DNA from: an uncultured Bacilli bacterium
GTDB lineage: Bacteria > Bacillota_I > Bacilli_A > RF39 > UBA660
Length of the DNA: 43,889 bases
Direction of reading: 5' to 3'
Assembly: GCA_947628525.1 (NCBI GenBank)
Contig: CANRAE010000003.1
Location: 1 to 43,889 of the forward strand
Under the pieces are notes generated by a model. The model was not told the origin of the DNA, did no database searches, and saw only the letters and a program-made list of their open reading frames with translations. Below are positions 2,551 through 43,889 of this stretch, piece after piece (within the stretch, counting starts at the first letter, position 1; every line of letters starts with the position of its first letter). The position numbers and the translations under genes are program-made.

Positions 2551-2647
2551 CAAATGTTGTCTTTTTTTGTTTTTTATTAAAAAGTTACTTGATTACAATT
2601 ATAAAACCAAATATAATATATTTGTAATAATAGGATAGGTGTTATAA

Positions 2648-3985
2648 ATGAAAAAAAATTTTTTAATATTTTGTTTTATCTGTTTATTTTTATTTTTTAT
2701 AAATCCTAAAATGGTAAAAGCATATGTGTTACCTGATGGTTCATATACATTAGAGTGCATTTATGATGATGGAGGATTATATACATTAGAATTTTATGAT
2801 GGAAGTATAATTACAAATAGGACTCCTTATAATTTACATGGTGTTGCAAATAGTGAAGCTAACGGAGGCGGAGCTTACGAATTTAAAAATCAGTTAGGTA
2901 TTAGAAATGTATCTGATGGAGCATATCGCTGTCAAACAGAGATGTATATGGCCAAGTTTGATGATACAAATTTTTATAAATTCGGTGAAAAATTTAAAGC
3001 ATGTACAGACGACAAATGCGAAGAATTTAATGCAAGAACCAATGGATGGTATGCATTTTGGGGTACTGAAACCGACGAGAATTATGAAAAAGCTAAAAGT
3101 GCAATAAATAAAGCAAATAATAACCCATATCTCTTGGTGTCAGAAAGTATTACCTTTAATGGTGACGCACCAGATCCAAAAGTAACACTTTACTATATAA
3201 AAGATAATGGTACTGCCAAACAAGCGGCTTCCTCTAATAGCTATATAAAGATTTTTTCTTATGATAATAATCATACTTTTCTTGAAAAAGATGGGAGAAC
3301 CACGTATTTAGATGGCTCTACTTATGCTTTTCCAGGAGCCATTGTTAGTAAAGTTAATGGAAGATACGTAGTTAAGCCTAATGAAGGATATAAAGATGAA
3401 AAAATTGATGATATTTATATAAATGTGGCGGAGCCGATTCCCTCAAAAAACAGTAGTTCGTCTTTATCATATTCTTTTGATGCAATAAGATACAAAGTAG
3501 CTACTGCTAATAAATTAGGGCAAGAAGATTATCCTAGAAGTCAATTAACAGAGCATTATGTATTAACTGATCCAATAGATGATTCTTCATCAACAATTGA
3601 TAATAGTTTATGTGAAAAAAGATTAGGAAAAACTTCTAAGTATTTGCGTTTAATTATTCAAGCATTACAAATTGGTGTACCGGCAATTACTATTATTTTA
3701 ACTGGTATTGATATTGGTAAAATTGTTGTTTCTGGTAATTTAGAAGAAGAATTGCCTAAGAAAAAGAAAACTATTATTTATCGTTTAATTATTATGCTAG
3801 TATTTTTCTTCTTGCCAATATTTGTTAGACTGTTTATCACTCTTCTTAAAACAAGTGGTGCTAAAAATTCGGATGCAATATTGTATATAGATTGTTTATT
3901 TGAAACAGATGCATCTATTGAGGAAGAACCACCTGTTGCTGATCCTAAACCATGTTATGGTGATCATTGCATGGAAGCAAAATAA
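2648..3985 (+). CDS. Secreted/surface protein with a C-terminal pair of TM helices resembling T4SS pilin (VirB2/TrbC-like); paralog of 7878..9149
   Basis: Signal peptide MKKNFLIFCFICLFLFFINPKMVKA; ectodomain; C-terminal LQIGVPAITIILTGIDIGKIVVSGNLEEELPKKKKTIIYRLIIMLVFFFLPIFV. Confidence 0.55.
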   Translation: MKKNFLIFCFICLFLFFINPKMVKAYVLPDGSYTLECIYDDGGLYTLEFYDGSIITNRTPYNLHGVANSEANGGGAYEFKNQLGIRNVSDGAYRCQTEMYMAKFDDTNFYKFGEKFKACTDDKCEEFNARTNGWYAFWGTETDENYEKAKSAINKANNNPYLLVSESITFNGDAPDPKVTLYYIKDNGTAKQAASSNSYIKIFSYDNNHTFLEKDGRTTYLDGSTYAFPGAIVSKVNGRYVVKPNEGYKDEKIDDIYINVAEPIPSKNSSSSLSYSFDAIRYKVATANKLGQEDYPRSQLTEHYVLTDPIDDSSSTIDNSLCEKRLGKTSKYLRLIIQALQIGVPAITIILTGIDIGKIVVSGNLEEELPKKKKTIIYRLIIMLVFFFLPIFVRLFITLLKTSGAKNSDAILYIDCLFETDASIEEEPPVADPKPCYGDHCMEAK

Positions 3986-4046
3986 ATCGCAAAGTAATTG
4001 GTAACAACAGCGTTTCTAAAAAACAATATTAAAATGAGGTGATTAT

Positions 4047-5939
4047 ATGGTTGACTTTTTTGCAGCTGCACAAAGAGTATTATCTATGATAATGTCTGCT
4101 TCTGAAATGGGATTGGTTGTTTGGCTCGTTCAGGGCGGAATTGTATATTTAATACGTGGGATTTGTTTTTGGATTGATACTACCTTTGTTTCTTTTATAG
4201 GATATATATATAAATATTTTATGACATTAATTGAGGGCAATTTGTTTAACGAAGCTGTCGTTAATGCAGTACTAAAGAATATATATTTATTTATAGGTAT
4301 AATTGTATTTTTTAGAATAGCTATGTTAGTTGTAAGATACTTAATTAATCCTGAACTTTTAAGTGATCAAAAAGTGGGTGCTGATAAACTAATTTATCGC
4401 GTTATTATAGGGGCACTTGGGATTATTTTGATTCCTACTATTTTCGATTGGGCCATAAAATTGCAGTCATCGATAATAGAAGATCAAGTGATTCAACAAA
4501 TAGTGTTCCCAGCTGATATGCTGGCTCAAGTAAAATATAATATTGAAGATGGTGGTGCCAAGATCGGTACAACTGTTTTAGCTGGCTTTCTTAACCCTAA
4601 TCAAAATGCATCACAAAAAACACAAGAACAATATGAACATGCTCTTATCAAAGGGGATTTATCATCAATTGATCTTAATACAGGAGGATTTTTAAATGGT
4701 TATTCCGGATATGAATATGGCTACTTTTTTATCATTTCAACTTTGACTTTAGGTTATGTTCTGTTTTTAATGCTACAATATTGTTTGGATGTAGTGGTTA
4801 GATTTTTTAAATTATTTTTATATCAAATGTTAGCTCCTGTGGCTATGGTTGAATATATTGTTAATGGCTCAGAAGATGGTGTTTTTAAAAATTGGAAACA
4901 AGCCTGTTTAAGTACTTATTTTATGCTTTTTGTTAGATTGCTTGCCGTTTGGTTTGTAGTGTTTGTTATGACATTAATGAATAATACTTTTCCTAAATAT
5001 TCAAATGGATCTTTATTAGTTACAAAAGATTATTTGTTGAAAGCTTTGATCGTTATAGGATTACTTGGATTTATGAAAGATCTTCCAAAGTTAATTGGCC
5101 AAATATTTGGGCTCGATTTAGAACAAGAATCATCAGCTACTGGCTTCTTAAAATCCGTTGGTGGAATTGCAAAAGGACTTGGTATGAGCGCTCTTTCAGC
5201 TGGCGGTGCAGCATTAGGTGGAGCTTTTGGTGCGGCTAAGGCAATACAAAAAGCAGGACTTCAAAATACGATGCAACGTAGGTCTGCACTTAACAAATTT
5301 AGAGACGAAAATGGTGGTCTAAGTAAAAAAGAGGCAAAACAGCAAATGGGAATGGGATTTGCTGGCTGGCATAATGTAAGAAAACAAGCTACTGAAAAGA
5401 TGCAGGCAGATCCAAGTCTAAAAAGAAAAGATGCTAAAGCACAGGTTATTTCGGAAAATTCAAAGTTGAAAGAAGGAAGATCATCGCTAAAGAATATGTC
5501 TAAAGGAGCTGTTGCTAGTTCTGGTATTGAGACCGCTAATTCTATGGTAGGTGCTGTAAAAGGAATGGGTAGTGCAGCTGCTCAGTCAACTAGTGTCGGT
5601 GGTAACATATATAAAGGATTTTCAGGTGCTACTAGAAATGCAAGTGAACGTAAGCAAAAGGCTGAAGCAAAAGAAAGTAAGCAGCAGCAAGCAAGAAATA
5701 GTCAACTTCAAGAACAAATGGCTAATGATATATCAACAATGGTTGATAATAGTATGGCTTGGTTAGGTAAATCTGGAAGTTCTGCCCCAAGTAGTGGATC
5801 AAGTGCGCCAACAGGAAGTCCTGCCCCAGGTACTGGATCAAGTACGCCAACAGGAAGTTCTGCCCCAAGTAGTGGATCAAGTGCGCCAACAGGAAGTCCT
5901 GCCCCAGGTACTGGACCAAGGACAACACCTAAGAGTTAA
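4047..5939 (+). CDS. Polytopic membrane protein, VirB6/TrbL-like, with low-complexity hydrophilic tail; paralog of 9180..11231
   Basis: Multiple TM segments, conserved NPELL..KVGADKLIYRVIIGALGIILIPTIFDWAIKLQSSII block, Gly/Ser/Pro repeat tail. Confidence 0.5.
   Translation: MVDFFAAAQRVLSMIMSASEMGLVVWLVQGGIVYLIRGICFWIDTTFVSFIGYIYKYFMTLIEGNLFNEAVVNAVLKNIYLFIGIIVFFRIAMLVVRYLINPELLSDQKVGADKLIYRVIIGALGIILIPTIFDWAIKLQSSIIEDQVIQQIVFPADMLAQVKYNIEDGGAKIGTTVLAGFLNPNQNASQKTQEQYEHALIKGDLSSIDLNTGGFLNGYSGYEYGYFFIISTLTLGYVLFLMLQYCLDVVVRFFKLFLYQMLAPVAMVEYIVNGSEDGVFKNWKQACLSTYFMLFVRLLAVWFVVFVMTLMNNTFPKYSNGSLLVTKDYLLKALIVIGLLGFMKDLPKLIGQIFGLDLEQESSATGFLKSVGGIAKGLGMSALSAGGAALGGAFGAAKAIQKAGLQNTMQRRSALNKFRDENGGLSKKEAKQQMGMGFAGWHNVRKQATEKMQADPSLKRKDAKAQVISENSKLKEGRSSLKNMSKGAVASSGIETANSMVGAVKGMGSAAAQSTSVGGNIYKGFSGATRNASERKQKAEAKESKQQQARNSQLQEQMANDISTMVDNSMAWLGKSGSSAPSSGSSAPTGSPAPGTGSSTPTGSSAPSSGSSAPTGSPAPGTGPRTTPKS
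5775..5930 (+). repeat. Four 39-nt in-frame tandem repeats (two 78-nt higher-order units) encoding GSSAPSSGSSAPT / GSPAPGTGSSTPT
   Basis: ggaagttctgccccaagtagtggatcaagtgcgccaaca and variant repeated four times; last unit diverges at its end. Confidence 0.9.
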
Positions 5940-5951
5940 TACTGAAACTAT

Positions 5952-5990
5952 AAGAATGATAAAGTAGTGATCTTTATTATTCTTTTTTTG
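5952..5990 (+). terminator. Intrinsic terminator after the first VirB6-like gene
   Basis: agaatgataaag..ctttattattct stem then ttttttt. Confidence 0.6.
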
Positions 5991-6052
5991 CTAAAAATCT
6001 TGAATTTATAATAATAGTGTGATAAGTTATAAAATAATAGGTGGTGTATAAT

Positions 6053-7744
6053 ATGAATTTGATAACAGAAGTTGATGAAATTTTAAATAAAATAAACATA
6101 ATCCAAGACCTTTTGGAAAATACGACTGATCCTGTTAAAATTGATGATTTACAATATAATATGGATTTATTAAAACTTGATTTGCGTGAATGTAATTTAA
6201 AATGTAAACTGGAAAAAGGATTAACAAAGGAATTGATTGAGGAGCAAGGTGTTATTGACGCCGAAAGAGATTTGATTTTAAGAAAACAGGCTTCTGTTAA
6301 GCAAATAAATAATGAAGAAAAATTACCAGAATATAATTTATCGTCTGAATTTATTGTTGCAAAAGATACTGGTGAAACTATTGATATTAGGGATTTATCA
6401 ATTAATGAAAAAATTGAGACTATTTATCGTTATACTGGTGTTGCTATTACTTTTGAGGATCCGGTTTTACAAAATAAAAAACAAGAACGTTTAGAACGAT
6501 ATTTATCTAATTTACAAAAAAGATATTCCGAAGAACAGCTTGTTGCATTTTTGGACACAAATTGGCAACAAACAATTTCCGAATATTATTCAAGAGGTTA
6601 TGATATAATTACAAATGCTAAAATAACTTCTATCATTAGTAAAGTCGATGCTGAAAAAGGACTTGATGATAAAAAAGAAGACAAAGAAGCAGTAGATGAT
6701 CAACCACATAAAGATTCAAATGATAAAGATAATAAAAAGCCGATATTTACTACTGATATTTTTAATGATCCAGCATTAAAACCATTTGTTAAGAACGGAT
6801 ATATTGATTTAACTGAGTATGAAGACCAAAGTAAATCTCCAAAAGGAACAGTTGATGATCCAACAATGGATCAAAAAGAAACAAGTATGAGTTTCTTTTC
6901 CAATAATCAAATAATGCGCGAATTATCCTTTGTTTTGAAAAAGAAATTAGACGAATCTATTCATGTTGATTTAGCAGATGTTATTAATTGTCTTTATGAT
7001 AAAATTAATGATCCTGATATGGTAGCTAGCCGTAAAAATTGTACTGTTGAAGAAATTACTAATGCTATGAACAGTGTTTATGACAGTTTAATTAAGACTA
7101 ATGGTAAATATGTTAGAAAGCATATTGTAGATACTTATAAACCTCTTATCGGTGATGATGCTTTAAATAAAGGTGAAACTTATTTGCAAGGAGTGTTAGA
7201 TGGTGTTTCTTTAAAAAATCAAGGATTAAAAAAGGACTTTTTAAAAACAGCTAATGCTGCTGCTGAACTTTTAAATGGTGATGAAAAATTAAACGAAAAA
7301 ACACGTCAAGAAATATTAGATCGATTGGATGTTAAATTTGCAAAAGATAATGATGATTCTGAAATGTTAACAATAACCAATAAAAATAACGACACTATCT
7401 ATGATGTAGCATTTAAATTGATGGTTTGTAAAAAGACAGGTATTTCAGCTAAAATATCATATAATGGCAAATCATATGATACCAATAATTTTGAAAACGA
7501 ATTAAAGTTATTAGATACGAAAGAAGAACAAGAGAAAGAAAAGGCTAATAGCAATAAATTGGTAGAATATCAAAAGAAAATTAATGATTTGGATGCTGAA
7601 AATATTAGGTTAAAAAAATCAATTGAAATGCGAGATGAATCTATTAAATCTTTAAGGGATGATATCAAAAATATTATGGATCACGCAAAAGAAAATAATG
7701 GTACTCCTGAATATACAAGTGAAGAAAAACCAAAGAGTTTGTAA
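6053..7744 (+). CDS. Hypothetical soluble protein, charged, C-terminal coiled coil
   Basis: ORF called from GTG 6041, but ggtgg just upstream favours ATG 6053 (MNLITEVDEILNK). No recognised family; no TM. Confidence 0.75.
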   Translation: MNLITEVDEILNKINIIQDLLENTTDPVKIDDLQYNMDLLKLDLRECNLKCKLEKGLTKELIEEQGVIDAERDLILRKQASVKQINNEEKLPEYNLSSEFIVAKDTGETIDIRDLSINEKIETIYRYTGVAITFEDPVLQNKKQERLERYLSNLQKRYSEEQLVAFLDTNWQQTISEYYSRGYDIITNAKITSIISKVDAEKGLDDKKEDKEAVDDQPHKDSNDKDNKKPIFTTDIFNDPALKPFVKNGYIDLTEYEDQSKSPKGTVDDPTMDQKETSMSFFSNNQIMRELSFVLKKKLDESIHVDLADVINCLYDKINDPDMVASRKNCTVEEITNAMNSVYDSLIKTNGKYVRKHIVDTYKPLIGDDALNKGETYLQGVLDGVSLKNQGLKKDFLKTANAAAELLNGDEKLNEKTRQEILDRLDVKFAKDNDDSEMLTITNKNNDTIYDVAFKLMVCKKTGISAKISYNGKSYDTNNFENELKLLDTKEEQEKEKANSNKLVEYQKKINDLDAENIRLKKSIEMRDESIKSLRDDIKNIMDHAKENNGTPEYTSEEKPKSL

Positions 7745-7771
7745 AATTCTTTGATTTTTTTTGCTTCCATT

Positions 7772-7788
7772 ATTTACAAATTGTAAAT
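7772..7788. promoter_or_regulatory. Perfect palindrome, possible operator upstream of the poly-G promoter
   Basis: ATTTACAA-A-TTGTAAAT, 24 bp upstream of the proposed -35. Confidence 0.4.
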
Positions 7789-7812
7789 TTTTCGAAGAAG
7801 TGCAATTTGTGC

Positions 7813-7843
7813 TTGCAAAACACGTAGGGGGGGGGGGTATAAT
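7813..7843 (+). promoter_or_regulatory. Candidate phase-variable sigmaA promoter with poly-G spacer
   Basis: TTGCAA (7813-7818), 19-bp spacer ending in 11 G (7827-7837), then TATAAT (7838-7843). Confidence 0.7.
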
Positions 7844-7877
7844 AGGATATATAGAATAGTATAATAGGAGTGGTAAG

Positions 7878-9149
7878 ATGAATAAAAAAATATTATATGC
7901 TTTTTTATATATTATATTCATTTTTTCTATTAATGTCATACCTGTTAAAGCAGCAAATTTAACGCTTGAGGATAAAGATTTTGTTTTAGAGTGCACTTAT
8001 GCTGACGGTTCGTTATTTACCGTTGATTACGATAAAATGTTTTTTAGAAAGGGGTATAATGATATATCAGATGTTAATTCTAATTATCTTTTTATTGTAC
8101 CCGATAATGTTTCTAATATATTTGATGAAAATGGTAATATCATAGAATATCGTTATTCTAAGTGGCTTGGTGGTGAACATTGTCCTTTAAATTTAACTAA
8201 ACTTGAAGGAACTGTTATTACTGGTGAAATTTATGAAGACAATGACCCAACTGACGATCTTCTAGATTATACAGAAGAAGATTATTATCTATACACATTT
8301 ACTAATATTAATGGTGGAATTTTGAACTGGCCTTTTGAATCCGATGAAAAAAATGCATTACTCTCTGCTTTTAAAGAGGCAGTTGACGGCAGTGATCATT
8401 CAATTGATACTTTTTCCAAAGCCAAAAAATATCCTCTTACCTTTGAAAGATATTATCTTAATACTAGCAAAAAAGCTGATTTAATTTATAATTATGCTGT
8501 TCATGTAGAGGATGATCATACTACTAGTCAACCGGCTAAACTTTATTTTTATGATAATGTAGCACTGTTTGAAATGGGTGGGGTCGTTTCCCGAGTTAAT
8601 AATATCAATGGCGAAGGATCTATTTGTAATCGTCAAACGTCATATGCTAATTGTTTAAAAGAGTCAATTTATGTAAATAGCTTGGCTCCTAATAGTGTTG
8701 GTGGTTCTTCTAGCGTTAGCTATAATAGTACTAATTATTATATAAATTTACTGTCTTATGGTCAAAGCTGTCGTGAGCATAATAATAATAAAGCTTGTGT
8801 TAAACTAGATTTTATCGGCGATGGTAATGTTGAAGATGAAAGTACATCATCGGATAATAGAGTGTGTGAACTATTAGGTAATAATACTGTTAACATAATA
8901 AAAGAAATTATTGGGTGGTTACAAATAATTGTTCCTGGTTTAATGATTGTTTTAATTGGCTTTGATATAGGTAAAATGGTTGTATCAGGAAATTTAGATG
9001 AAGAATTACCTAAAAAAAAGAAAATTATTTTTATAAGATTAATTATATTAGTGTTCTTCTTTTTTGCACCACTTTTAACCAAAGTTTTCATTGAAATTAT
9101 GAAAGTATCCAAAGTTGATATTGGGCAAATTCAATGTATAGTTGATTGA
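7878..9149 (+). CDS. Secreted/surface protein with C-terminal pilin-like TM pair; paralog of 2648..3985
   Basis: Signal peptide; FVLECTYADGSLFTVDY parallels YTLECIYDDGGLYTLEF; IGKMVVSGNLDEELPKKKKIIFIRLIILVFFFFAPLL parallels paralog; SD aggag. Confidence 0.55.
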   Translation: MNKKILYAFLYIIFIFSINVIPVKAANLTLEDKDFVLECTYADGSLFTVDYDKMFFRKGYNDISDVNSNYLFIVPDNVSNIFDENGNIIEYRYSKWLGGEHCPLNLTKLEGTVITGEIYEDNDPTDDLLDYTEEDYYLYTFTNINGGILNWPFESDEKNALLSAFKEAVDGSDHSIDTFSKAKKYPLTFERYYLNTSKKADLIYNYAVHVEDDHTTSQPAKLYFYDNVALFEMGGVVSRVNNINGEGSICNRQTSYANCLKESIYVNSLAPNSVGGSSSVSYNSTNYYINLLSYGQSCREHNNNKACVKLDFIGDGNVEDESTSSDNRVCELLGNNTVNIIKEIIGWLQIIVPGLMIVLIGFDIGKMVVSGNLDEELPKKKKIIFIRLIILVFFFFAPLLTKVFIEIMKVSKVDIGQIQCIVD

Positions 9150-9179
9150 TAGTATGTAATGTAGCGAGGTGATTTATAT

Positions 9180-11231
9180 ATGGCGGCAGCATTAGCAATC
9201 GTAGGTGTTATTGCCCAAATAGGGACAATGATAGGGCAACTGAATGATCAAGCAGAGCTCTTAGAGAAAATGGAACAACGTCTAGAAGATCTAACTAATG
9301 TAAAATGGCTTATAAAACAAGCAAGAGAAATTTGTATTGGAATTGATAAGCAATTAATTGCTTATTCCAATCAAGTTTATAATTATTTTATTCAAATAAT
9401 TAATGGGACTTTGTTTACTCCTTCACTAGTTAAAGAACTATTAAATAAAGTTTATATTGTTATAGGTATAGTTATCTTTTTTAAAGTGGTTGTTATATCT
9501 ATAAAATATATGGTCAATCCTGAAATGTTTTTAGATGATAAGTTAGGAGCCCAAACATTAGTAAAAAGGTTTATCATCGGATCTATTATAATTATTATGA
9601 TACCTACTATATTTGGTGTAGCTAGAAGATTGCAAAGTGCAATTATATCAGATCATGTTATTGAAAAAATGGTTCTTAATGATCAGCAATATAGGGAGAT
9701 AATAAATAATAGAGATCCTGGTAAAAGGGTCAGCGTTATGATTTTTAGAGGTTTTTTCAATTGGAATTCGGGAATAGAACCAGAATCTTTTCCTAACTTA
9801 TATAGCAATTTTGAGCAAATTGATAAGTATTTATCAGTGGATTCTTTATCGGAAGATAAGATTAACACGAAAGAAGGTGATACATTTGTCTTTAATTATG
9901 TTCCTGTCATATCGACTATGGCTATTGCAGCTTTTCTTATAATGTTAATTAAATTCTCCTTAGAAGTACTTTTACGTGCCTTTAAATTAGTTCTTATGCA
10001 GTTGATGGCTCCTTTTGTTATTACTAGTTATATGCTAGATCCATCAAAAGAAGAGCAAATGAAAAAGTGGACTAATACAACTTTATCAATTTATTTATTG
10101 ATGTTTGTTCGGGTTTTAACTATTTGGGTTGGTGTTTTAGTATGTTATTTTTTGCAAAATGGTGTTCCAACCGCCAGTGGCGAGGTTTCTCTTATAAATG
10201 TTGCAATTAATGGTCAATCAGGAACAGATAATTTGTTAAAAACTTTAATAATATTAGCTTTGTATGCTTTCTTAAAAGATTTACCCAAAATTTTATCCAA
10301 TATAACTGGTTTTGATTTTCAAGAAAATGAAACAATTACAGGTATTGTTAATCAAGGAGTAAATGTTGCCAAAGGATTTGCTATGGCTAAGGTTGGAACT
10401 AAATATGCTAAACAGCAAATAGGGGAACAAAAAGAATTATTAGGTAAACAAAAATGGTATGCTGGTGCATCTTCTGTTGGTAGTGGTTTAACTAGTGTTG
10501 GTAGCTATGCTGCAAGTAATGGCGGCTTTAAAGCAAGTGGTTCATTCAAAGGCTTTGCCAAAGGATTTGCTAATGATAGTAAGGCGATGACCACACTTAG
10601 TTCAGGTATAGGAATGAATATATCTTCTATGCAAGGAGGTTATGCTTCTGTTACTCAAAGTGTTTCACAAGCAACGTCTACAGCTTTTGGTCAAAGTATT
10701 TTATCGCCAATTTCTAATGCTTCTTCGATTCAAGGATCAGCTCCACGTTATACTGCTACTACATCTAGTTTGACGGGAACTCCTAGTTATACATCCGATA
10801 GTGGTTCTTCTGGTGGCGATAATGTTAATGAGCCTAAGCACGACAATGATCAAAGCGAGCCTACTGTAAACAACAATAATACATTTACAGCTGGTGATGT
10901 AGAAAATATTTTACATAATTTTGAAAGTAATAACATCGACGGAACAACTACTTTTGATTTATCCGCTAACGTTAATTCTAACCAAGATTTGAGTACGTTT
11001 AATAATAATAATGCAAAACCAACTGTCATTGATCAGCTTGCCCAAAAAGTTCATGAGCAATTACCAAATAAAAATACGATTGAAGTTAATGAAGTAAAAA
11101 ATAGTATTGTAAGTGAAATACAAAAATTAAGTGATTCAGGTGAAATTTTAGATCGTTCTAAAATATCAACTGATAAAATAAGTCAAATATTAAGTAATGT
11201 TCAAACATCATTATCCCAAAATAAAAAATAA
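9180..11231 (+). CDS. Polytopic membrane protein, VirB6/TrbL-like; paralog of 4047..5939
   Basis: VYIVIGIVIFFKVVVISIKYMVNPEMFLDDKLGAQTLVKRFIIGSIIIIMIPTIF aligns by eye to the first copy; long polar tail. Confidence 0.5.
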   Translation: MAAALAIVGVIAQIGTMIGQLNDQAELLEKMEQRLEDLTNVKWLIKQAREICIGIDKQLIAYSNQVYNYFIQIINGTLFTPSLVKELLNKVYIVIGIVIFFKVVVISIKYMVNPEMFLDDKLGAQTLVKRFIIGSIIIIMIPTIFGVARRLQSAIISDHVIEKMVLNDQQYREIINNRDPGKRVSVMIFRGFFNWNSGIEPESFPNLYSNFEQIDKYLSVDSLSEDKINTKEGDTFVFNYVPVISTMAIAAFLIMLIKFSLEVLLRAFKLVLMQLMAPFVITSYMLDPSKEEQMKKWTNTTLSIYLLMFVRVLTIWVGVLVCYFLQNGVPTASGEVSLINVAINGQSGTDNLLKTLIILALYAFLKDLPKILSNITGFDFQENETITGIVNQGVNVAKGFAMAKVGTKYAKQQIGEQKELLGKQKWYAGASSVGSGLTSVGSYAASNGGFKASGSFKGFAKGFANDSKAMTTLSSGIGMNISSMQGGYASVTQSVSQATSTAFGQSILSPISNASSIQGSAPRYTATTSSLTGTPSYTSDSGSSGGDNVNEPKHDNDQSEPTVNNNNTFTAGDVENILHNFESNNIDGTTTFDLSANVNSNQDLSTFNNNNAKPTVIDQLAQKVHEQLPNKNTIEVNEVKNSIVSEIQKLSDSGEILDRSKISTDKISQILSNVQTSLSQNKK

Positions 11232-21202: not shown

Positions 21203-23050
21203 ATGAAAAAAGTAAAATATTTTAGTTCTGTATTATTAATGCTGATATTAATGGCAATAATAAGTCCTGTTAATGTAAGTGCTGGCACTACTGTGCCATT
21301 ATCAAATGATGAATTTGGTTTAAATAATTTCAAAATTGATGTGCAAGTAATAGATAAAGTTACTTATGCATATATGGAGATGTTGCTTTCTAGTGGAACT
21401 TTAAAAGAAGGCACTTCTTATTATGTTAAATTCGTTAATGGAAAAGATGATAAATTAACTGATTTGCCAAAAAATGTTACTAACGTTGGCGCTAATTCAT
21501 CTGATAATGATATAACTAAATGGAATTCCATTATTACTTTTGAAGATAAAAAAATGATTATTGTTAATGACGATTGGTATATGTTAAAGGGATATGATTA
21601 TGCATATTTTATGGCATGCAATAGTGAAAAATGTGTGGCATCAAATGAACCAATAAAAGTAGAACGCCCTAGTTTACCAGAGTTATCAAAAAGATATAAA
21701 GTATTTAACCATGAATTTGGTAGTCAGATTGGATCCGATGTATTAATAGTAAAGCCAATGTTTCCTTATGCTGGTAAAGATGGTTCCCATAAAATAAATG
21801 TAAAGATAGGAAAAATAAATGATGAAAACCTATTACATTCTATTCATAGTGGTGAAAAAAATGCTTTAGTTAATTTGATGGAATATGCCAAAAAAAATGA
21901 AGGTATAACTGTTTCAGCTAGTGATATTGATTTTTCGATGAGTGATGAGCTACTACTTGAAGGGAAAGGGGTTAAGTTTGATAGTTCAAAAATAGAAAAT
22001 GGTGCATATTACTATATTTATACAGAATATGAAAATAGTGATAATGTATATAGAGATTTAAGTGATATAACTATTGCACAAGGGAAAAATCGTAGTTTAT
22101 CTAATGAGATTAATTGGGATAAAGATCCAAGTACAGGAGAAACTAGTACTGGCTCAGATAAAAATGATGAATTTGGTTTAAATGATTTCAAAATAAAATT
22201 AAATTATAAAACGGGTGATAGTACCCTTAGCATGGTTGCTTATGGTGGTAATTTTAAAAAAGAGACAAGTTATTATGTTAAATTTGTTAACAGTAAAGAT
22301 GAAAAAATAACTGATATACCACAAAAAGCTGTCAAAGTTAATTATGATTCTGATGATATAACGCAGTGGAAAAGTATTATAGAGTTTAACAATGAAATGG
22401 TAATCGAAATTGCTCATGATTGGTATATGCTAAATGGATATGAATATGCTTATTTTATGGCTTGTAATACTGAAAAGTGTGTGATATCTAGTGAACCGAT
22501 AAAAGTAGAACATCCTAGTTTACCAGAATTATCAAAAAGGTATGAAATACATTATAAAAACACTGGTAGCGATACTAAAAATTGGGGATTATCTATTTTC
22601 CCACTATTTCCAAATAAGGGTACTAAAAATGGTTCGCATATGATAAATATAAAGATAGGAAAAATAAATGATGAAAAATTACTATATTCTATTTATAAAG
22701 GAGAAAAAAATGCATTAGCTAACTTGATGGAATATGCCCTAAAAAATGAAGGTATGAGTGTTTCTATTAATGATGATAATTATTATGATATTAAAATTGA
22801 TAAATTAAAAGTGGAAGATGGATCATATTATTACCTTTATACAGAATATGAAAATAGTGATAATTTGTACAGAGATTTAAGTGATGTAACTATTGCTTAT
22901 GGAAGATCTGGATTTTTATCAAATGATATAAAGTGGGACTATGAAAAAAATCCAAGTACTGGTGATGTTAATATATATGTTTTAATTGGAGGGTTGTTAT
23001 TAATAACTGGTTTAGGATTAGTATCTTATAAGAAACTAAAATTTAATTAA
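21203..23050 (+). CDS. Cell-wall-anchored surface protein with duplicated ectodomain and NPSTG sorting-type signal
   Basis: Signal peptide, two ~270-aa repeats each starting NDEFGLN(N/D)FKI, C-terminal KNPSTGDVNIYVLIGGLLLITGLGLVSYKKLKFN. Confidence 0.85.
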   Translation: MKKVKYFSSVLLMLILMAIISPVNVSAGTTVPLSNDEFGLNNFKIDVQVIDKVTYAYMEMLLSSGTLKEGTSYYVKFVNGKDDKLTDLPKNVTNVGANSSDNDITKWNSIITFEDKKMIIVNDDWYMLKGYDYAYFMACNSEKCVASNEPIKVERPSLPELSKRYKVFNHEFGSQIGSDVLIVKPMFPYAGKDGSHKINVKIGKINDENLLHSIHSGEKNALVNLMEYAKKNEGITVSASDIDFSMSDELLLEGKGVKFDSSKIENGAYYYIYTEYENSDNVYRDLSDITIAQGKNRSLSNEINWDKDPSTGETSTGSDKNDEFGLNDFKIKLNYKTGDSTLSMVAYGGNFKKETSYYVKFVNSKDEKITDIPQKAVKVNYDSDDITQWKSIIEFNNEMVIEIAHDWYMLNGYEYAYFMACNTEKCVISSEPIKVEHPSLPELSKRYEIHYKNTGSDTKNWGLSIFPLFPNKGTKNGSHMINIKIGKINDEKLLYSIYKGEKNALANLMEYALKNEGMSVSINDDNYYDIKIDKLKVEDGSYYYLYTEYENSDNLYRDLSDVTIAYGRSGFLSNDIKWDYEKNPSTGDVNIYVLIGGLLLITGLGLVSYKKLKFN

Positions 23051-27370: not shown

Positions 27371-28555
27371 ATGAAAAAGAATTGGGTTAAAGTAATTCTA
27401 GTGATTGTAGTTTGTTTCTTATCTATTATAAAGGTTGATGCTGTAAGTGGTGATTTTTCGGTTAAAATGCCACCATCTCCTTATATCGATGGCCAAACAA
27501 AAGTTGTTATTACTGGGGTTGAAAACTATAAGCTTTATAGCCAATTTATAAAAATTGATGATAATAAATATAATGCAATATATAATGCTGTAAATAATTA
27601 TAACCAGTTATATAAAGAATATGAGACATACTATAAGAACGCACCTAACCAAGAGGATTATGAAGCAGGTGAGACTGATAAAAGTTATGAAGAAGCAGTT
27701 AGGGAATATACCGCTAAATTAAATGAATATAAAAAGAATGTTGGCGACGCTCTTCAAAAAGTATATGATGAACTTCCAGATTTTAATGAAGAAAATTGGA
27801 GTGAGATGAAAGACGATATTATTACTTTCCCAAAAGATTTTAAAGAAGATGATCGTGCGGTTCTTTATGTTAAACTTGATAATAAAGATACCGAAAAAGT
27901 TTCATATGGTTTTTCAGTAATTACTAACAAAGGTGGTAGTGGTAGTACTTCTGATACACCAACGGAAGATGAGCTATCTATATGGGATCAATTAGTTTCT
28001 GGAATTATCAATAATAAAACTATTTCTGAAACCTATAAAAAAGGTGAATATACTGTAACTTTTGATAATGATATTCGTACAATTTTAAAAATTAAAATTG
28101 TTAAAGATAGTGATGGTACAACTTATCAATTATCTTTAAATTATGATAATGGTATTGTAACTTATCAAACACCAACTACTGAGCCAGAACGTTATGAATT
28201 AGTTCACAAAAATATTATTAATGTTGTCTTAGAGGAAATTGCTGAAATATATGGATATAATTCTAAGGAATTTATTAATTGGATTATGACCCATAAAGAT
28301 TTGACTATGGCTAATAATGGTATCGAATATAAAGCAGAAACTAAGGACGTTGAAAATACAAAAGTAACATTCATTAATGATTTAAAAGTTGATATTATTA
28401 ATGGTATTAAGGGATTTACCAATGGTACTAGTGAGGATGATGAAAAAAATCCTAGTACTAGCGATTTATCAATGTATGCTGTGTTTGGAGCATTAATAGT
28501 AGTTGTAAGTATGGGAGTAATTTCATATCGCCGATTAAGTAATAATGCTGAATAA
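27371..28555 (+). CDS. Surface protein with C-terminal NPSTS-type sorting-like signal
   Basis: Signal peptide; KNPSTSDLSMYAVFGALIVVVSMGVISYRRLSNNAE. Confidence 0.8.
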   Translation: MKKNWVKVILVIVVCFLSIIKVDAVSGDFSVKMPPSPYIDGQTKVVITGVENYKLYSQFIKIDDNKYNAIYNAVNNYNQLYKEYETYYKNAPNQEDYEAGETDKSYEEAVREYTAKLNEYKKNVGDALQKVYDELPDFNEENWSEMKDDIITFPKDFKEDDRAVLYVKLDNKDTEKVSYGFSVITNKGGSGSTSDTPTEDELSIWDQLVSGIINNKTISETYKKGEYTVTFDNDIRTILKIKIVKDSDGTTYQLSLNYDNGIVTYQTPTTEPERYELVHKNIINVVLEEIAEIYGYNSKEFINWIMTHKDLTMANNGIEYKAETKDVENTKVTFINDLKVDIINGIKGFTNGTSEDDEKNPSTSDLSMYAVFGALIVVVSMGVISYRRLSNNAE

Positions 28556-40872: not shown

Positions 40873-41985
40873 ATGCGTAAAATTAATATTGTTATTTTTT
40901 CATCAGGGGTTAGTGAAAAAAAGGGGACATTAAATAATTTAATTAATGCTTTAGATACTCGTGGGTATAATTGTTTTTGTTGGCGTGATTTATTTATAAA
41001 TGCTAATACGCAAAATAATATTGCCCTTCTTCCCATGTTAATAAAAAAAATTCCTACCTTTGATTTTGCTATATTAATATGCGAAGGACATGATAATACA
41101 ACTATGTTTAGAAATAATGAATATATAACAGTACCATCAATGCGCGATAATGTTTTATTTGAAATAGGATTATGTTCTATGGCCTTAGGTTTATCACGTG
41201 TAATATTACTTACGGATAATAAAGTCCATATGCCCGAAGATTTAGTGGGAATAAACGGATCCTTAGCTTTAAAACATATTATCTTTAATTACAAAGAAAT
41301 AGATAAAGCCGTTGATGACATTGATAAACATATTTTAAACAATAGAGATAATTACAATTATGAAACCATTATAGAAGATATAGATAAGTATATCAAAGAT
41401 AATAAAAAATATATTTCTCCCGTAGTTATAGGTGCAGCCACGTCAATTGCCATAGGATATGCCAATAATTTTATTATTCGCCTTTTAGAACATATATTAG
41501 ATGGTTTTGAAACTGAAAATCAAAAATTAATCTTCAAAAAAGAAAATATATTCTTACATATTATTATCCCAGAACATTATGATGATAATACCGTTAATAA
41601 AGCTTTACTTATCCAAAGTAAATTTAAAAAAGGAAAATTGATGACAGCAAGACATAGGGAATTAGATTTTAATTATGAAATAAAAGATAATAATCTCTAT
41701 ATATATGACTATCCTACATCATTAGTTACATCTTATAGTACGGCTAAAATGATTTTAGATATCGATGCTGATGATGGTCAAGATTATTTGGCGAAAGAAA
41801 GATTTAATGATAAAGAATTAGATCTATTTATTGTAACTTTACAAAATATTTTACAAGAAAAATATATAATTACTACTATTGACTTATATTATCCTAATAT
41901 TTCTAATAAGCGAAAACAAAAAATAGTTAAAAATATATGTTATATATTAGAAAATAACTTTATAATTGAACAAAAAGATTATTAA
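40873..41985 (+). CDS. Candidate TIR-STING CBASS-type effector
   Basis: N-terminal TIR-like (CAP12/PCTIR type): FDFAILICEGHD..MRDNVLFEIGLCSMALGLSRVILLTD..MPEDLVGI; C-terminal STING-like: AIGYANNFIIRLLEHI, IFLHIIIPEHY, RHR, YDYPTSLVTSY. Confidence 0.7.
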   Translation: MRKINIVIFSSGVSEKKGTLNNLINALDTRGYNCFCWRDLFINANTQNNIALLPMLIKKIPTFDFAILICEGHDNTTMFRNNEYITVPSMRDNVLFEIGLCSMALGLSRVILLTDNKVHMPEDLVGINGSLALKHIIFNYKEIDKAVDDIDKHILNNRDNYNYETIIEDIDKYIKDNKKYISPVVIGAATSIAIGYANNFIIRLLEHILDGFETENQKLIFKKENIFLHIIIPEHYDDNTVNKALLIQSKFKKGKLMTARHRELDFNYEIKDNNLYIYDYPTSLVTSYSTAKMILDIDADDGQDYLAKERFNDKELDLFIVTLQNILQEKYIITTIDLYYPNISNKRKQKIVKNICYILENNFIIEQKDY

Positions 41986-42002: not shown

Positions 42003-43826
42003 ATGAATTACTTATATTTGCTTATTGCTTTAATTACGCTTTTATTGACATTTATATTTATTAAAACAAGTTCTAAGAATTTGAGTCATTTAATTTTTAT
42101 ATGTCTTTTAGGTTTACTAGTTACTTTATTTATTCTAATGTTTCCTTTGGTAAATAGTGTAGGATTATTATCAAAATTTGTAACTACACTTATATATACT
42201 ATTCAAACTATAACATTTAATCAAGATTTAGAATTGGTAAATAATATTACGGTTACATCTTTTTATGAAGGGGTATATATTGGCATTATTTATATCTTAT
42301 TTTTATTAATACCACTAATGACAACAACTTATTTACTTTCTTTAATTGATGGTGTAGTCTCTAAAATTCGCTTATTTTTGTCTAGACACACAAAAATATA
42401 TATCTTTTCCGAAATAAATGAAAAGACCTTAGCTATAGCCTCTAAAATGCATAGTAAAAATGTAACGACTATATTTATAAAAAGTAAAAATCAAGTTATT
42501 GCTGATGAACGAATAGATGAAGTAAAAGCTATTAAAGGAATAATGTTTAATGAATTTGCTAATATAAAACTTAAAAAATATATTAATAGAGAAGTCGCCT
42601 TTTATTTATTTTCATCTAATACTACTCAAAACTTAAACCAAGCAATAGAAATTACCAATAAATATAAAAATAATACTAATTCATTTAAAGTTTATGTTTT
42701 AACTAAAAATAATGTTGATAGTCTGATACTTGATTCTATTGATAAAGGTAATATTCAACTTGAAGTAGTAGATGAAAACGAAAGAATAGTATATCAATTA
42801 TTAAATAATAAACCTTTGTATTTAGAAGCAATAAATAATAAAATAGCAGTATTAATAATATCAGATGATACGATTGGGTTAGATTTTATTAAAGCTATTA
42901 CATGGTGTGGCCAATTAATTTCATATAAGTTATCTATTAATATCTTGGGTGAAAATGCAATGATATTAAAAGATTACATTCAAGTTAATTATCCTGAACT
43001 TTTAGATAATTATGATTATAATTTTATTCCTTATAATCTTAATAGTATTAATGCCCAAAAAGAATTAGATAAAATAAAAGATATTAATTATGTAATAATT
43101 GCTAATAAAGATGATAAGGTAAATATTGAAGATAGTTTGTTTTTAAGAAAATATTTTATAAATCAAGATAAATTAAATTATAGAAGAAGTCCTATCATAA
43201 ATGTAATGGTAAAAAATGCTCTAATTGCTACAAAGGTCAATGAATTAAAGAATGAAAAGAATAATTTATATAATTTAAATACTTTTGGAAATATAAGAAA
43301 TATTTATTATGAGAATAATATTATTGATTCAAAGTTAGAAGATTTAACTAAAAATGTTCATTTATCATATGATACTTCTAATGATCCATTAAGTGTCAAA
43401 TTAAAAAGATTTTACGAGAAAGCCTATTATATTAATTCATCAAGGGCTATGGCTCTTCATTTAAATTATAAATTATATACTATTTTAAAAGAAGAATATT
43501 CTAGCGATGAAAAGAAAAATATAGCTTTATTTAAAGAAAAAATAAAAGATAAAGAAATTTTTGATAAATTAGTTAGAAATGAACATGATCGATGGATGGC
43601 GTTTATGAGAGTTAATGGTTATAAAAGTATTGATGCTAAGAAAGTAGCAATTTATAGGGATTATACTAATAGTCATGTTCACTATTTAGCTAAATTGCAT
43701 CCTTGTATTGTTCCTTTTGATGATTTAGAAAGAGTAGGTAAAACGATAAAGAAAGAAGATGTAATTACTTCTGATGGGGATATTATCAAAAAAATGGTAG
43801 ATATTTTAAGCAATACTAGTAACTAA
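42003..43826 (+). CDS. Multi-TM protein with TrkA-N/RCK-like region and C-terminal RyR-like domain
   Basis: 3-4 N-terminal TM helices; KIYIFSEINEKTLAIASKMHSKNVTTIFI Rossmann-like; C-terminal NEHDRWMAFMRVNGY..HPCIVPFDDLERV. Confidence 0.6.
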   Translation: MNYLYLLIALITLLLTFIFIKTSSKNLSHLIFICLLGLLVTLFILMFPLVNSVGLLSKFVTTLIYTIQTITFNQDLELVNNITVTSFYEGVYIGIIYILFLLIPLMTTTYLLSLIDGVVSKIRLFLSRHTKIYIFSEINEKTLAIASKMHSKNVTTIFIKSKNQVIADERIDEVKAIKGIMFNEFANIKLKKYINREVAFYLFSSNTTQNLNQAIEITNKYKNNTNSFKVYVLTKNNVDSLILDSIDKGNIQLEVVDENERIVYQLLNNKPLYLEAINNKIAVLIISDDTIGLDFIKAITWCGQLISYKLSINILGENAMILKDYIQVNYPELLDNYDYNFIPYNLNSINAQKELDKIKDINYVIIANKDDKVNIEDSLFLRKYFINQDKLNYRRSPIINVMVKNALIATKVNELKNEKNNLYNLNTFGNIRNIYYENNIIDSKLEDLTKNVHLSYDTSNDPLSVKLKRFYEKAYYINSSRAMALHLNYKLYTILKEEYSSDEKKNIALFKEKIKDKEIFDKLVRNEHDRWMAFMRVNGYKSIDAKKVAIYRDYTNSHVHYLAKLHPCIVPFDDLERVGKTIKKEDVITSDGDIIKKMVDILSNTSN

Positions 43827-43829
43827 TTA

Positions 43830-43856
43830 AAATGCATGTAAAAGTGCATTTTTTTA
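43830..43856 (+). terminator. Intrinsic terminator of the TIR-STING operon
   Basis: AATGCA-tgtaaaag-TGCATT TTTTT. Confidence 0.75.
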
Positions 43857-43889
43857 TTGCCAAAACCGTAGGGGGGGGGGGAGAACAAA
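43857..43889 (+). promoter_or_regulatory. Second poly-G module (TTGCCA + 8 bp + 11 G), truncated by window end
   Basis: TTGCCAAAACCGTAG(11) vs TTGCAAAACACGTAG(11) at 7813; G run 43871-43881. Confidence 0.5.

Follow-up and report, generated by a model that had tools for sequence, protein, structure and literature searches.

A poly-G tract in the promoter spacer of a surface-gene module in an uncultured Bacilli bacterium, a candidate phase-variable promoter and member of a recurrent cassette

Why should a run of 11 G residues fill most of the spacer between the -35 and -10 hexamers of a promoter that precedes a putative surface-protein gene? We addressed this question in the window, a stretch of 43,889 nucleotides that makes up the whole of contig C3 in a genome of 1.26 Mb and 86 contigs from an uncultured Bacilli bacterium (labeled G000), and in comparisons with other genomes, most of which were likewise available as draft assemblies.

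Anatomy of the promoter and of the module downstream

The initial annotation had described a TTGCAA hexamer separated from a perfect TATAAT by 19 bp including 11 G, and direct reading of the sequence found this arrangement to be exact [Table 1]. The total spacer of 19 bp lies within slippage distance of 17 bp, and 34 bp separate TATAAT from the start codon of the first downstream gene, A2, in the window sequence. That an 11-G run was unlikely to arise by chance, as also proposed, was borne out by shuffling and by a Markov model alike: a shuffled window was expected to hold 0.04 words of 8 G, and the 8 matches observed were reached in 0 of 100 shuffles, while runs of at least 11 were expected about 0.01 times in the whole genome under a first-order Markov model. 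G or C runs of at least 4 in the AT-rich window were of length 4 (n = 52), 5 (n = 5) or 11 (n = 2), lengths between 5 and 11 being absent. The second G11 tract of the window had been overlooked in the initial annotation; it belongs to another poly-G promoter, which is truncated by the end of the contig and is directly preceded by a terminator-like hairpin (about 43830-43855). This second promoter follows a gene devoid of Pfam match (42003-43826), next to which lies a gene for a TIR-STING protein (40873-41985; PF10137 TIR and PF20300 prok_STING), a CBASS-type effector for which no cyclase gene was recognized in the window.

Table 1 Features of the two poly-G promoters and of the duplicated A/B module of the window
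Feature	Position	Strand	Basis or remark
A1 promoter TTGATT-17 bp-TATAAT, tract-free	2589-2617	+	
A1, paralogue of A2	2648-3985	+	
B1, VirB6-like paralogue of B2	4047-5939	+	NF045848 conjugal transfer family, E 6.6e-13, below cut-off
-35 hexamer TTGCAA	7813-7818	+	Sequence; hexamer position matches the recurrent motif
Fixed spacer part AACACGTA	7819-7826	+	Genome consensus AAACCGTA
G11 tract, completing the 19-bp spacer (7819-7837)	7827-7837	+	Sequence
-10 hexamer TATAAT, perfect	7838-7843	+	Sequence
Ribosome-binding site AGGAG, 7 nt 5' of the ATG at 7878	7866-7870	+	Sequence
A2, 423 aa: signal sequence, ectodomain, C-terminal two-helix VirB2-like region	7878-9149	+	
B2, 683 aa, multi-TM, putative VirB6-like partner of A2	9180-11231	+	Position and size as B1
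Second poly-G promoter TTGCCA AAACCGTA G11	43857-43881 (G11 = 43871-43881)	+	Truncated by the contig end, 8 bases away

Two other kinds of element were considered at the window promoter and rejected. An invertible promoter was ruled out because the site is without flanking inverted repeats: no pair closely flanked it, the only candidate being an imperfect pair of 17 nt that lies within coding sequence and has its arms separated by 717 nt. A leader RNA element was ruled out as well, no Rfam element being present at the promoter and the sole Rfam match in the window being a tRNA. A strict scan for hairpins at the window's own promoter site returned no terminator-like structure.

The C-terminal region of A2 matches small T4SS_pilin-like proteins, themselves below cut-off, that are encoded in a chromosomal T4SS/Tad-like locus of the same genome with TraG P-loop, T4SS-DNA_transf, TrbL_4 and T2SSE matches. 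The structure model of A2 was of low confidence except for its C-terminal helices, and a family profile search yielded no family match for B2 in its own right. The best reading of A2-B2, as judged from sequence, is that of a putative surface-exposed, VirB2/VirB6-like module. Two further surface proteins of the window (21203-23050 and 27371-28555) end in NPSTGD or NPSTSD followed by a TM segment and a basic tail, resembling sortase anchors, and are without poly-G promoter.

The A/B module sits between topA and polA, as a single copy in genomes G114 and G085 and in duplicate in the window's genus, and its duplication offers a natural control in that one copy has a fixed 17-bp promoter and the other a poly-G promoter. 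In another species of the genus (G004), the A2 orthologue retains a poly-G promoter with G10 and an 18-bp spacer, compared to G11 and 19 bp in G000; in G004, about 210 bp and a short ORF separate the tract from the start of A2. The tract-free promoters of A genes, in contrast, all have 17-bp spacers, with -35 hexamers TTGATT (A1 of G000), TTGTTA (G114) and TTGTAA (G085), and reading of the sequence showed A1 of G004 to be tract-free with TTGCAT and 17 bp. Poly-G promoters were similarly kept in pairs of species at a GtrII glucosyltransferase gene (G10/G11) and at the gene of a cohesin-like surface protein, a fold name given by reading only (G12/G11). Two VirB6/TrbL-like genes of yet another genus (G032) are preceded by poly-G promoters whose sequence differs. 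The order of the duplicated A/B blocks (window 2648-11231; loci L180, L181 and L182) is reversed between G000 and G004.

Recurrence of the cassette and variation of the tract

The design made of a -35 hexamer, about 8 fixed nucleotides, a G(n) tract, TATAAT, a leader and a start codon is found repeatedly within single genomes and across several lineages. In five congeneric genomes, that of the window and four more, there are 85 tracts of at least 8 G, of which 65 run straight into a perfect TATAAT and 60 conform to one motif consisting of a TTG -35 element, 7-9 fixed nucleotides, the G run and TATAAT. The sequence of the fixed part is species-specific (AAACCGTA, AAACCGAT or AATTTTCT), and a leader with a GGAG-type site and the start codon follow. 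None is present in one congener (G003). G8TATAAT was found in 36 of 295 genomes of the family and in 30 of 398 genomes of a class sample, compared to 0 of 295 and one genome, respectively, for the reversed control. Copy number is patchy within genera, with 76 copies in G523 (a species of another genus in the same family) and none in two of its congeners, and 34 in G499, whose congener has none. In lineages outside the window's genus the -35 hexamer is mostly TTGACA and the spacer 15-22 bp long, the mode being again 19. Similar boxes are present in the uncultured Bacilli MAG Lapin-008 bin25; scans for viral contigs with the same box found none. A variant poly-G promoter, TTGACA-CA-G10/11-TGANC-TATAAT, precedes two near-identical small anchored proteins of G000 (L076 and L077; C6:21196 and C10:11214).

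Directly upstream of the tracts, terminator-like hairpins were found in 14 of 15 cases in G000 (4.9 expected) and 25 of 29 in G004 (12.3 expected), with no excess in G001 (4 of 15, compared to 3.8 expected). In G001 (L088-L105), the promoters have in common a conserved block around CTGTCAAATAATGTAAG that lies some 25-65 nt before the G run.

Within the window's genus the tracts are 8-14 G long, with one of 18, beside conserved flanks, and the spacers of the 60 congeneric promoters measure 17 bp (4 promoters), 18 (17), 19 (29), 20 (8) or 21 (2). The 17-bp optimum (9 G) named in the initial annotation is, given this distribution, no more than a candidate ON state. The majority tract length accounts for 53-67% of a genome's promoters, compared to 85-100% agreement at most upstream fixed positions. 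Tract length also varies between otherwise identical copies in G004, where the G10 promoter at C24:49 and the G11 promoter at C5:10068 share 26 nt upstream and 20 nt downstream of the tract with 0 differences; since these lengths are assembly consensus, they reflect divergence between copies and not switching within a clone. No such variation was seen in G523, where G9 and a spacer of 19 bp are shared by 74 of 76 tracts; either their length is locked or the optimum has shifted. From the modal spacer of 19 bp it follows that the majority of copies in the sampled population are off or weak, or else that the optimum is longer for a spacer containing a G run. The presence of mutS in all 32 genomes examined counts against hypermutability and rules out loss of mismatch repair as a cause. 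Contigs break near tracts in 12 of 18 cases in G000 and 17 of 36 in G004, which fits mixtures of tract lengths and also repeats or sequencing failure.

The reading of the site as a promoter, put forward at the outset, is strongly supported by the recurrence of the motif, the poly-G tract kept at the orthologue, the 17-bp spacers of tract-free paralogues and the different lengths of flank-identical promoters.

Client genes and the diversity-generating retroelement

The genes downstream of poly-G promoters, hereafter clients, encode mostly membrane-anchored or secreted surface proteins, so that the surface-gene context initially proposed for the window promoter receives strong support from comparison. 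Besides A2 they include anchored surface proteins, the GtrII glucosyltransferase and lectin-like proteins, and several are targets of a diversity-generating retroelement (DGR). Many clients combine an N-terminal anchor, an Ig-like region and a C-terminal lectin-like or concanavalin-like (PF13385) domain. Neither a PDB match nor Pfam support above cut-off was obtained for the fold of the lectin-like domain; examined for a C-type-lectin fold, the VR/lectin-like domain gave low-confidence structure models and, in a single client, a weak match to DUF6273 (E 0.006).

A reverse transcriptase (RT) gene with an adjoining Avd-like ORF is present in G000, G001, G002 and G004, and the RT adjoins template/variable (TR/VR) repeats, as in a DGR. 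The Avd-like assignment is tentative, the matches to PF22296 (E 1.9e-5) and NF033474 (E 4.2e-4) falling short of the curated cut-offs. Mismatches between TR and VR in cis fall at template A in 66 of 69 cases (15/17, 16/17 and 18/18, plus 17/17 in G523). A cis target lies under a poly-G promoter in G001 (G10) and in G523 (G8). Two other poly-G clients, G000:C42 and G004:C50, look like targets in trans, 14 of 20 and 18 of 24 of their mismatches falling at A. In G523, the 76 poly-G promoters (L253 and further contigs) are mostly arranged in tandem arrays of lectin-like genes of about 1 kb around the DGR. The DGR RT of G000 (L212, 8870-10402, on C40) carries a C-terminal fragment of MutS domain I (PF01624, E 5.9e-7), as do those of G001, G002 and G004.

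A family-wide link between poly-G promoters and DGRs was rejected, RT being present in 13 of 36 compared to 87 of 259 genomes (Fisher p 0.85; counted by hand from the table of matches at E<1e-30). Without excess co-occurrence across the family, the combination of the two is lineage-specific. Where both act on the same clients, the proteins whose expression is chosen would also be those whose sequence is altered. Literature searches for DGR with slipped-strand events, for DGR with phase variation and promoter, and for RF39 with phase variation found no reports.

Interpretation and relation to known systems

Taken together, the comparisons point to the G tract being, probably, the variable spacer of a slippage-tuned, and as such phase-variable, sigma-70-type promoter that is a member of a genome-wide poly-G regulon; by analogy with established cases we infer switching of tract length within populations and transcription that depends on that length. 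Slippage during replication would add or remove G residues and move the spacer within 17-21 bp, RNA polymerase would start strongly or weakly depending on spacer length, and cells of one clone would come to express different subsets of clients. In the window, the A2-B2 module would be switched, its duplicate A1-B1 remaining under the fixed promoter of 17 bp. The terminator-like hairpins of G000 and G004 may block read-through from upstream, such that OFF would be truly off, and in the same genus and one other a DGR would also rewrite some of the clients. A broader proposal, plausible and still tentative, is that of a two-layer system in which the DGR alters the binding ends within a large surface repertoire of lectin-like proteins and slippage-prone poly-G promoters, terminator-insulated in some species, randomly pick the copies expressed in each cell. 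The cassette, whose copies number 0 to 76 across the species of a single genus, would have undergone recurrent gain or amplification.

Other accounts of the tract must be weighed against slippage. The G run could be a fixed structural part, either the site of a dedicated regulator or a determinant of spacer conformation at RNA polymerase, in which case the regulon would be co-regulated and not phase variable. The uniform G9 and 19-bp spacers of G523 (74 of 76) and the 19-bp mode shared by unrelated lineages speak for such a role; we nonetheless hold it to be unlikely, given that lengths of 8-14 (and one of 18) stand beside conserved flanks in the window's genus and that the fixed flank differs between lineages which have only the G run in common.

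It is far less probable that the tract is a by-product of promoter and leader having been copied along with an expanding gene family, poly-G being functionless or a point of recombination between paralogues. Promoter and leader are indeed near-identical among paralogues and contigs do break at tracts in G000 and G004, but the tract precedes unrelated genes (A2, GtrII and the cohesin-like protein), is kept at orthologues and is carried by distant lineages with different flanks. Scarcely credible is an artefact of sequencing or assembly arising from two-color poly-G calls. Many tracts do lie near contig ends, some of which have error-rich sequence; for internal tracts, however, an artefact is refuted by specific promoter sequence on both sides that keeps one register across dozens of independent assemblies, and by the absence of the reversed pattern.

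In promoter spacers, homopolymer switches are familiar chiefly from pathogens, where they act on single genes or small loci. Bordetella fim has a promoter with a poly-C spacer. The vlp genes of mycoplasmas form a family in which each gene has its own poly-A tract, and mycoplasma families switched through the spacer are smaller and clustered. In Neisseria meningitidis, porA is transcribed from a promoter with a poly-G spacer, in which indels alter transcription of this surface gene (PMC3899988). The promoters described here resemble those of porA and fim in having a G (or C) homopolymer between -35 and -10, a surface protein downstream and a spacer near 17 bp; porA and fim are single genes, whereas here predicted switches of a shared cassette are found at tens of promoters per 1.3-Mb genome. 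Indels between -35 and -10 also switch the surface lipoprotein genes vlp of Mycoplasma hyorhinis, maa2 of M. arthritidis and vmm of M. mycoides (PMC2268961). These differ from the present case in their homopolymer; here, moreover, sites are dispersed, clients unrelated and DGR targets included. Because a T tract beside the -10 of M. agalactiae does not switch (PMC2268961), a homopolymer beside the -10 alone is no proof of switching. Helicobacter canadensis has many poly-G contingency loci with ranges of length seen at the level of reads, five of them promoter-associated (PMC2823697); its tracts are mostly intragenic, whereas nearly all of those described here lie in promoter spacers.

The retroelements share with those of a DGR survey (PMC8144416) the RT, a tentative Avd-like ORF, TR/VR pairs and adenine-specific changes at the 3' end of surface genes. 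Unlike the surveyed DGRs, those of G001 and G523 have cis targets driven by poly-G promoters; the words 'promoter' and 'phase variation' are both absent from the main text of the survey. Compared to the known switches, a standard cassette here occupies tens of sites per genome in uncultured bacteria with genomes of about 1.3 Mb, which, if the proposed switching is true, would amount to a large predicted phase-variable repertoire per megabase. With DGR targets among the clients in four genomes of two genera, choice of expression and diversification may become amenable to study on the same proteins.
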